Under the pieces are notes generated by a model. It did no database searches. It had not been told where the DNA came from and saw only the letters and a list, made by a program, of their open reading frames with translations. From contig JAFRLM010000022.1 of NCBI GenBank assembly GCA_017431225.1, forward strand, positions 1 to 64,000: a DNA stretch of 64,000 nucleotides, written 5' to 3'. This DNA comes from Erysipelotrichaceae bacterium. GTDB lineage: Bacteria; Bacillota_I; Bacilli_A; Erysipelotrichales; Erysipelotrichaceae. This document shows positions 4,708 to 6,730 of the stretch, one piece after another. Made by a program: the position numbers and the translations under genes. Positions within the stretch are counted from its first letter, which is position 1. Each line of letters starts with the position of its first letter.

Positions 4708-5223
4708 ATGGAGAAAGAACTGAAAAAGACATACAAGCGCAAAAAACTGATGGACGGCGTTTATGGAAGCCCGCATCTGGCTCAACACACAGAGCTGGAT
4801 GGTTATTTCGGGAGCCTGCAAGGACAGACAAATCCGGGCAATGGACAGTGCAGCAAAAGAACTGGATACCGGTATGAGGCTGCTGCTCAATACGCCGGGT
4901 TATCCGGGCTGGCCAAGCAAAGAAGCTGCCATGGTGAACGGCTTACCGGCCGGATATTCCGAAAATGGCGGTGTCTTCTGCCAGACCAATTGCTGGGCCA
5001 TCATGGCGGAAGCTCTGCTTGGAAGAGGAGATATCGCCTGGAGATATTACAGCCAGCTGATCCCGGATATAGTGATCCGGAATTCGGCAGAACCTGCGTT
5101 TCTCAGGTGACGGGAACAGCTGCGTGGATGGATGTGGTTTCGACCCAGTATATCCTGGGGATCCGGTCGACTCAGAGAGGTATGCTGATCGATCCTTCCA
5201 TTCCTCCGAAATGGGATTCTTGA
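4708..5223 (+). pseudogene. Frameshifted 3' remnant of a GH94 glycoside phosphorylase
   Basis: The C-terminal part of a glycoside hydrolase family 94 phosphorylase is split over two frames. The frame starting at 4763 reads LNTQSWMVISGA, NTPGYPGW and GYSENGGVFCQTNCW, standard GH94 landmarks, until a stop near 5109. The frame open from 4708 to 5223 then carries VTGTAAWMDVV and LIDPSIPPKW, the family's final landmarks. The usual 20-25 residues between these blocks are missing, so there is an internal deletion plus a frameshift, and the catalytic Asp region is absent altogether. A good GGAGG site and ATG at 4708 head the remnant, just after the two TetR operators. It is not a shadow of the intact GH94 genes at 41.9-47.2 kb and looks like a different subfamily (LNTQSW type). 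Confidence 0.85.
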
Positions 5224-5255
5224 AATCAGGCCACTATTGTGTTATATTTAGCCGC

Positions 5256-5347
5256 GGTATCAGGGAGTAGCTGGTGCAAGCGCATAACACGTTCCGTCAG
5301 TACGGGATCTATCCCCGGAATTTGTTCGAAGCAGCAAGACTTTTACC
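5256..5347 (+). ncRNA. yybP-ykoY family (Mn2+) riboswitch aptamer
   Basis: The two conserved internal loops are present: GGGAGTAGC at 5263-5271 and AGCAAGAC at 5333-5340, with CGTCA at about 5295-5299 and closing pairs GGTA (5256-5259) with TACC (5344-5347). This is the established yybP-ykoY signature, which senses Mn2+. The 3' strand of the closing helix is shared with the 5' strand of the terminator that follows, so ligand binding should prevent termination and switch the downstream permease on. The class is normally found before Mn2+ exporters such as MntP, TerC/YkoY and certain P-type ATPases. Confidence 0.88.
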
Positions 5348-5377
5348 ACAACATCTGTTGTGATAAAAGTCTTTTTT
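5338..5377 (+). terminator. Riboswitch-controlled terminator
   Basis: Stem GACTTTTA (5338-5345) with TAAAAGTC (5364-5371), extended inside by ACAAC with GTTGT across an ATCT loop, followed by six T. It overlaps the last ten bases of the aptamer, giving a mutually exclusive ON/OFF switch. Confidence 0.88.
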
Positions 5378-5461
5378 GTTTATCTGGCACAAGGACTGCC
5401 GGTGCACGCCGCGCCGCGGGACCCTGCCTGAGACCACCGGAAAGATATGGGGGAGAAAGAA

Positions 5462-6730
5462 ATGAAGGTATTAGCTTTAGCTCTGTTTGCTTTGATGTAT
5501 GCCCTTATGATCGCCCTGCCGAAATACAGACCGTTTTACGCTCTGACAGTGGCGGCGATCTTCCTGATCACGGGCATACTGCCGATAAATAATCTGGCCG
5601 CGACGATCAACTGGAATGTTCTGTTGATGATCTCGGGAACGATGATCATCGTGTATTACTTTATCGATTCCCGCATGCCGAATCTTTTAGCGGATATCCT
5701 GCTCAGCAAATCGAAGAACGTCATGTGGGTAACCATAATCATGTCTCTTTTTGCCGGTGTGATCTCGGCATTCATCGATAATGTCGCTACCGTACTGATG
5801 GTCGCTCCTGTAGGAATGGCGATCTGTAAGAAACTGAATATGAACCCGGTGGGTATGATCCTTTCGATCGCGGTATCTTCGAATCTTCAGGGCGCCGCAA
5901 CGCTCGTCGGAGACACGACATCGATCATGCTGGGTGACTATGCGAACATGAACTTCATGGATTTCTTCTGGATGAACGGACGTCCCGGGATCTTCTTTGC
6001 TGTAGAGCTCGGCGCGCTGGCGACTATCCCGGTCATGATGTACCTGTTCCGTAAGGATACAGCTCCGGTCTCTTCGACCGAAAGAACGGCTGTCAGCAAC
6101 TATGTGCCGACAGTTATGCTGCTTCTGATGGTCGCGGCTCTGATCGTTGCCTCCTTTATCCCGAACACACCGTCGACGATCAACGGTATCATCTGCTGTG
6201 TTCTGGCGGTCATCACCATCGTGATCGATCTTATCCAGACGAAAAATTCCGAGAAAGCCGTCGACGCCATTAAGAATCTGGACCTTGAGACACTGGGACT
6301 CCTTACGGGATTGTTCGTCGTGATCGGAGGGCTGACAAACGTCGGCATCATCGATGACTTTGCCGCTCTGATCGTCAAATTCGGCGGCAACAATCTGTTC
6401 CTGCTGTACACGATCGTTGTCTGGGGATCTGTGCTGATCTCTGCCTTTGTCGATAATATCCCGTACGTAGCGACGATGCTGCCGGTCCTTACAGCCGTGA
6501 CCGCTACGCTGGGGATCGAGCCGTATCTTATGTACTTCGGACTGCTGTCCGGCGCGACCTTAGGCGGCAATATCACTCCGATCGGCGCATCGGCTAATAT
6601 CGCTGCTGTCGGATTGCTCAGAAAAGAAGGGCATCAGGTGTCCTTTAAAGAGTTCATGCGGATCGGTGTCCCTTACACATTGATCGCGGTAACGGTCGGT
6701 TATCTGTACTTCTGGTTCATCTGGAGATAA
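5462..6730 (+). CDS. ArsB/NhaD-like (SLC13/ion transporter superfamily) permease, candidate Mn2+ exporter
   Basis: A 422-residue integral membrane protein with about ten to twelve hydrophobic segments arranged as two similar halves. Each half has the conserved Asn/Asp-bearing re-entrant stretch: FIDNVATVLMVAP in the first and FVDNIPYVATMLP in the second, followed by GATLGGNITPIGASAN. This is the ArsB/NhaD/SLC13 architecture, used for arsenite, Na+/H+ or dicarboxylate transport. The Mn2+ riboswitch directly upstream argues that the true role is manganese (or other divalent) export; this is inference. GGGGGAG ends eight bases before the ATG at 5462, so that start is preferred over the in-frame ATG at 5447 that overlaps the ribosome site. 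Confidence 0.85.
   Translation: MKVLALALFALMYALMIALPKYRPFYALTVAAIFLITGILPINNLAATINWNVLLMISGTMIIVYYFIDSRMPNLLADILLSKSKNVMWVTIIMSLFAGVISAFIDNVATVLMVAPVGMAICKKLNMNPVGMILSIAVSSNLQGAATLVGDTTSIMLGDYANMNFMDFFWMNGRPGIFFAVELGALATIPVMMYLFRKDTAPVSSTERTAVSNYVPTVMLLLMVAALIVASFIPNTPSTINGIICCVLAVITIVIDLIQTKNSEKAVDAIKNLDLETLGLLTGLFVVIGGLTNVGIIDDFAALIVKFGGNNLFLLYTIVVWGSVLISAFVDNIPYVATMLPVLTAVTATLGIEPYLMYFGLLSGATLGGNITPIGASANIAAVGLLRKEGHQVSFKEFMRIGVPYTLIAVTVGYLYFWFIWR

Follow-up and report, generated by a model that had tools for sequence, protein, structure and literature searches.

The DNA analysed was positions 1-64,000 (hereafter the window) of contig JAFRLM010000022.1 (GCA_017431225.1), from an Erysipelotrichaceae bacterium of the gut. 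The features of interest are a leader and the gene that follows it, all on the + strand. A promoter-like site at 5220-5248 (TTGAAA, 17 nt, TATATT, with TG ahead of the second hexamer; 10 of 12 matches) was the one site found by pattern scan in 5200-5480, against 0.2 expected, and RNA made from it would begin at about the start of the aptamer. The aptamer, a short type of the Mn2+ (yybP-ykoY) riboswitch class without the P4 hairpin, spans 5255-5349, as indicated by two covariance models (R1 and SSRC10) and by covariation. Within it lie the loop L1 (GGGAGUA; 5263-5269), an adenosine at the invariable metal-sensing position of L3 (5299), and the closing helix P1, whose 5' strand (5256-5263) is complementary to 5340-5347 apart from an internal 2x2 mismatch. 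The 3' strand of P1 (5340-5347) is the switch, being common to the 5' arm of the terminator according to covariation and the terminator fold. The intrinsic terminator occupies 5336-5377 (hairpin 5336-5373, six-T tract 5372-5377; 16 pairs, -18.0 kcal/mol). A ribosome-binding site (GGGGGAG, 5449-5455) precedes the start of a 422-aa permease of the ion transporter (ArsB/DASS/SLC13) superfamily (5462-6730), assigned from Pfam, NCBIfam, homologues and predicted structure. The ATG at 5462 was preferred over 5447 as the start because homologues begin there and GGGGGAG is just upstream. Upstream of the riboswitch, part of a GH94-type glycoside phosphorylase gene, covering 267-367 of the 420 profile positions, lies at 4708-5223; it is split over two frames and is likely a pseudogene remnant.

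No Rfam family attained its gathering score within the window, and RF00080, the Rfam Mn2+ riboswitch model, had no match in 5200-5480 even at E ≤ 10. The sole Rfam match at E ≤ 10 in 5200-5480 was RF02617 SSRC10 ('Streptococcus sRNA 10'), which covered the leader at 5259-5378 over its full length (1-113; 29.6 bits, E 6.7e-4; cut-off 56). Among ten control aptamers of relatives, MntP leaders included, RF00080 matched none (0/10) and SSRC10 matched six; the miss by RF00080 therefore cannot refute the riboswitch class, as this model is without power in these relatives. The model R1 was made from seven relatives' aptamers, only those before YrbG-type exchangers and P-type ATPases. It matched window positions 5255-5349 (53.0 bits, E 1.1e-8; search over 704 kb), and this match counts for the aptamer because no permease-linked sequence had entered the model. 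For the Escherichia coli mntP leader, RF00080 gave 41.6 bits, below its cut-off of 45, and the best R1 match fell at the same place and was weak (12.9 bits, E 0.14). From this pattern of R1, RF00080 and SSRC10 matches, the window element is therefore taken to be a short form of the yybP-ykoY class. It shares with RF00080 members (structures from L. lactis and X. oryzae) the L1 sequence, the invariable L3 adenosine, a P1 common to the terminator and, for the aptamer type, metal-export genes downstream, and differs from them in that no P4 hairpin of the four-way junction was seen in the window aptamer and in being missed by RF00080. A three-way-junction form of the yybP-ykoY riboswitch has been described for streptococcal mgtA (PMC9495176). 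The public Mn2+ riboswitch model overlooks the entire short form, which is frequent among these bacteria.

SSRC10 had matches in 20 of 60 relatives. With gene types judged from the sequences, partly by BLAST against such genes, the matched leaders lay directly before MntP (L001, L006, L008, L009, L012, L020), YrbG-type exchangers (L003, L010, L016, L018), P-type ATPases (L005, L015, L019), the ArsB-like permease (the window, which is L004, and L007) and a permease remnant (L002); the matches in L011, L013, L014 and L017 fell on other sequence and are not real leaders. In Streptococcus pyogenes, SSRC10 is described as flanked by SPyM3_0439 and SPyM3_0440, the latter a putative calcium transporter gene (PMC3675131). 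This position and its matches to MntP, YrbG-type and ATPase leaders make it most likely that RF02617 SSRC10 represents a Mn2+ riboswitch leader ending at the terminator. The window element resembles it in the full-length match and in the same layout of aptamer and terminator; in contrast, SSRC10 is catalogued as an sRNA, and the gene behind it is not an ArsB-like permease.

All 28 permease-linked aptamers had the same L1 loop, and the metal-sensing position of L3 was an adenosine in all 27 rows with a letter there (27/27), one of the 28 aligned rows having a gap. Adenosine 5299 would correspond to A48 of X. oryzae, equated with A41 of L. lactis; the base-by-base equation is the authors' own. 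Both sides changed in 18 of 27 pairs across the 28 aligned aptamers, and none of 500 shuffles (0/500) attained any of five covariation measures. In the 28-row alignment, which was fitted to the model and is biased in its favour, 90% of cells were paired, compared with 31-43% when it was slid. Helix P1 had changes on both sides in four of seven pairs, and its two mismatch pairs were unpaired in 20-21 of 28 rows. Folding of 5240-5380 gave a z of -4.1, and the aptamer folded alone was no better than shuffles (z -0.29). The 5' arm of the terminator began inside the 3' strand of the aptamer, 5-18 nt ahead of the aptamer end, in 32 of 32 examined aptamers. The terminator at 5336-5377 was not listed by a simple pattern scan, probably owing to the mismatch in its stem.

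Sensing of Mn2+ and stabilisation of P1 are established for the yybP-ykoY class. As reported for the solved structures, Mn2+ is bound through five phosphoryl oxygens and N7 of the invariable adenosine, and it stabilises the switch helix P1.1, which results in antitermination (PMC6754395). Given the terminator overlap in all 32 aptamers, Mn2+ binding should therefore switch the gene on, and the leader, as far as its sequence tells, is almost certainly a functional ON switch of the Mn2+ class. The initial annotation had placed here a Mn2+ riboswitch with an overlapping terminator. Its class assignment is borne out by R1, by the conserved L1 and L3 adenosine and by covariation, and the overlap by the shared P1 strand; its start at 5256 was one base off the model start (5255). 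The refuting condition named in the initial annotation, a covariance score below threshold, literally applies to RF00080, but a model that misses 10 of 10 relatives' aptamers cannot refute the assignment, and the R1 match speaks for it.

The permease scored 228.7 bits with Pfam CitMHS (PF03600; gathering 31.9) and 33.6 bits with Pfam ArsB. It attained no cut-off in NCBIfam: the ArsB models gave 53.1 of 457, 52.4 of 760 and 45.2 of 415 bits, TIGR00785 (DASS) 67.2 of 198.6, NhaD_1 21.3 of 80 and MamN 71.8 of 500. Nor did it match any known Mn exporter family (MntP, CDF, UPF0016, P-type ATPases, TerC) in the Pfam and NCBIfam searches, in agreement with the unusual target gene of the initial annotation. 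Systems described for Mn efflux are CDF (MntE), MntP, UPF0016 (MneA) and P-type ATPases, with TerC (PMC13274385); the permease resembles them in its apparent regulation by Mn2+ and differs in belonging to none of these families. Its AlphaFold model (mean pLDDT 88.2, pTM 0.84) was closest among solved structures to ArsB of L. ferriphilum, an arsenite/proton antiporter (10tp; Foldseek E 6.5e-15; Z 44.3, 2.6 A over 408 residues, 16% identity), followed by the DASS/SLC13 carriers NaCT, NaS1, Pho90 and VcINDY (Z about 35-38). By phmmer, the permease found nothing at E ≤ 1 among PDB sequences, and the permease profile did find VcINDY and ArsB.

In the profile alignment with ArsB, the hairpin-tip asparagines N107 and N332 corresponded to N111 and N337, and D151 to D148, whereas D106 and D331 took the places of A110 and N336, V108 that of D112, and A376 that of S380. 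The published roles of these ArsB residues are with the metalloid for N111, N337 and S380 and in proton coupling for D112 and D148 (PMC13381914); of the coupling Asp pair, D148 is thus kept in the permease as D151, and D112 is replaced by V108. D106 aligned with the first Ser of the SNT motif of VcINDY. In place of the SNT motifs of DASS symporters, the permease has D-N-V at 106-108 (from the alignment) and D-N-I at 331-333 (from the repeat motif). Position 106 was acidic in 91 of 91 permeases (84 D, 7 E); D151, D331 and N332 were each present in 91 of 91, and N107 in 89 of 91. The acidic residues were also present in the remote aptamer-less paralogues L146 and L147, and therefore point to a site of cation type across the wider group and not to Mn2+ alone.

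In a scan of genome contigs, 67 permease loci were found. R1 matched 25 of these, in 23 directly upstream of the permease and in two (L028, L032) upstream of a Na/Pi cotransporter gene that precedes it. A permease tree of 91 rows was made from the contig-scan loci (fragments L076, L078, L084 and L087 dropped), 26 loci from the family of the window, L007 and the window; the family-genome search had given 30 loci, of which L118, L119 and L126 were dropped as repeats of rows already present (by length, L119 and L034 look like one contig) and L145 because its match divides the gene. For want of upstream DNA, L025 and L040 were left unscored for the aptamer. Of the 89 scorable homologues, 30 had an aptamer upstream (two with the Na/Pi transporter between), and 59 were without one. 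The pairing occurred on at least six separated branches (the window clade; L053/L054; L007; L072/L083; L067/L142; L140/L144), with a minimum of 10 changes, between gain and loss of which the tree gives no discrimination. Beside the permease in 34 aptamer-less loci (20 + 14), no other Rfam riboswitch was found.

In 115 genomes of the family, R1 had 126 matches in 88 genomes, 125 of which were examined for the downstream gene (G061:C9 left out). The first gene after the aptamer was a P-type ATPase in 47 cases, a YrbG-type exchanger in 29 and MntP in 27, together 103; it was a permease in six, a Na/Pi cotransporter in six and an SPFH protein in three, with seven other or none, the permease remnant of L002 among them. 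The Na/Pi and SPFH classes were read from the sequences, with a Pfam test of Na/Pi for L028 only. A seventh aptamer-linked permease, in G104, had its aptamer seen in the permease-locus search only, and in G012 an aptamer adjoins the permease but points away from it. A same-strand aptamer just upstream of a permease was thus found for seven genes in the 115 family genomes, versus approximately 0.002 by chance, a rough figure for which a mean genome of 1.95 Mb was assumed. The link of the permease to manganese made by the initial annotation is upheld by the recurrence of the pairing and by the exporter families that the same aptamer type precedes, and recurrence in separate lineages suggests a new kind of Mn exporter. 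A literature search of titles and abstracts found no publication that pairs a yybP-ykoY or Mn2+ riboswitch with an ArsB-, SLC13-, NhaD- or MamN-type permease.

In the genus of the window, G001 has the aptamer with a 55% identical permease, G002 retains the aptamer and just the initial codons of the permease gene, and both are missing from G003. In L002 (103-1000), of the same genus, riboswitch and terminator are kept, but of the permease only some 30 codons remain, followed by an asparaginase gene, from either a deletion or an assembly join.

The genome of the window had one R1 match, that ahead of the permease. It also encodes MntP (C24, 134 bits), a CDF protein (C25), a YrbG-type exchanger (C12) and, as regulator, a DtxR/MntR-type protein (C9). 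Searches of this assembly, which is 86% complete, for TerC, Nramp, UPF0016/GDT1 and an aptamer-type ATPase found none of them. The permease as the sole Mn2+ exporter of its genome was accordingly rejected, as MntP, YrbG-type and CDF homologues are present. No aptamer was found at its MntP or YrbG-type exchanger genes, and of 14 stretches searched only L160 and L156 were above noise. MntP was encoded in four of the seven aptamer-linked family genomes. In genus g51 (G062, G104, G129), the permease was the only gene found with an aptamer; MntP, TerC, UPF0016/GDT1, Nramp, a DtxR/MntR-type regulator and an aptamer-type ATPase were not found in these three genomes, and a YrbG-type exchanger (without aptamer in G062 and G104, the two checked) and CDF are retained. 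As MntP is present in some permease genomes and not in others, the permease is therefore not a strict replacement for MntP.

With the aptamer, terminator overlap, recurrent pairing, fold and conserved residues obtained by computation, and regulation of the permease by a Mn2+-class leader well supported, the most economical reading, and a moderately probable one, is that a Mn2+ riboswitch turns on a Mn2+ exporter that works by proton antiport. At low cytosolic Mn2+, 5336-5373 would fold as the terminator and transcription would end before the permease gene. At high Mn2+, the metal would dock L1 and L3 and stabilise P1 (5256-5263/5340-5347), which would take the shared strand from the terminator so that the permease is made, a transcriptional ON switch. 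The permease would then be an elevator-type secondary transporter of the ArsB/DASS fold, moving Mn2+ out in exchange for protons, with D/E106, D151, D331 and N107/N332 as the substrate and coupling site. Mn2+ as substrate, efflux as direction and coupling to protons are proposed because the aptamer class mostly drives exporters, ArsB, closest to it in fold, couples efflux to protons, and the site is richer in acidic residues than in anion carriers. Against Mn2+ export stand the MntP, YrbG-type and CDF genes of the same genome, the 59 scorable homologues without an aptamer, the acidic residues shared with remote aptamer-less paralogues, the Na/Pi link, which fits an anion role equally, and the replacement of ArsB D112 by Val. 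The overall interpretation of the initial annotation, export of Mn2+ or a need for the permease at high Mn2+, is therefore upheld in part: class, terminator, target and Mn link are retained, export as such is putative, the genome has its own MntP, CDF and YrbG-type genes, and the Na/Pi link leaves room for an anion role.

The main rival, unlikely but the weightiest of those considered, keeps the same Mn2+ riboswitch and takes the cargo of the permease to be an anion or a metal complexed by a ligand (phosphate, citrate or another carboxylate), which the cell has to adjust at high Mn2+. It draws on the loci in which the aptamer drives a Na/Pi cotransporter with a PhoU-type domain and then the permease (L028, L032; the same pair in L025), on the Na/Pi transporters that follow six of 125 aptamers in the family census, and on a fold common to yeast Pho90 (Z 35.6) and citrate carriers (Z 38.5), as also in the Pfam name CitMHS. 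The carboxylate-binding SNT motifs of DASS are, however, replaced by D-N in both repeats, which adds negative charge, and the TIGR00785 cut-off was missed. A second rival is that the permease exchanges Na+ (or K+) for H+ and so restores pH or ion balance when Mn2+ stresses the cell; Asp-Asn cores of this kind resemble those of NhaD/P-protein type permeases. An antiporter-like gene was read from sequence near seven of eight related aptamer-less permeases, but such neighbours are not shared with the aptamer-linked loci, the NhaD model fell well short of its cut-off, and most aptamers of the same type drive known Mn or related cation export families, all of which makes the antiporter improbable.

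Two further explanations are very improbable. An arsenite/antimonite pump with a Mn2+ riboswitch in front by happenstance would agree with ArsB as the closest solved fold, but not with ArsB model scores of 45-53 bits against cut-offs of 415-760, nor with the change of ArsB Asp112 to Val and of Ala110 and Asn336 to Asp; among two genes on each side at 58 loci, no common ars-type neighbour was read from the sequences. Neighbours shared between loci were tried as a clue to the substrate and rejected, with only group-specific ones found (a permease frame was obtained for 58 of 62 loci). The element could instead be a free small RNA, as SSRC10 was catalogued, with the promoter of the permease downstream, a reading that rests on SSRC10 as sole Rfam match and on its description as a Northern-detected, terminated transcript (PMC3675131). 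In the family, though, 103 of 125 such elements immediately precede a gene for MntP, a YrbG-type exchanger or a P-type ATPase, SSRC10 itself precedes the putative calcium transporter gene, and the pattern scan found no second promoter on the + strand in 5255-5462.

If the permease is a Mn2+-induced exporter, it would be one more Mn2+ exporter family beside CDF, MntP, UPF0016, P-type ATPases and TerC, the last on growing evidence, and the fold of arsenite, sulfate and dicarboxylate transporters would be shown to carry a divalent cation as well. A substrate hypothesis would also be at hand for many proteins named only CitMHS or SLC13-type permease in databases. A broader proposal, given about even chances, is that these permeases form a further bacterial Mn2+ exporter family of ArsB/DASS elevator fold, in which Asp-Asn at the hairpin tips would serve a divalent cation and which came under Mn2+ riboswitches repeatedly, in some genomes joined with a riboswitch-controlled Na/Pi transporter into one detoxification module of Mn2+ efflux and phosphate handling.

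Na/Pi cotransporters with PhoU-type domains were a second unexpected recurrent target of the aptamer (6/125; L173, L174, L093, L100, L110, L156). In L028 (1024-2941) and L032 (3070-4986) they make up an operon with the permease, and G001, of the genus of the window, has one aptamer ahead of a Na/Pi transporter and one ahead of the permease. No publication linking a Mn2+ riboswitch to a phosphate transporter was found in the literature search.

In L049, L051, L055-L058, L060 and L075, a glycosyltransferase-like gene lies ahead of an aptamer-less permease and is itself preceded, at seven of these eight loci, by an antiporter-like gene; these functions are read from sequence alone, and the arrangement is a conserved cluster of another lineage. 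The SPFH genes found directly after an aptamer (L188, L223, L103) are flotillin-like.
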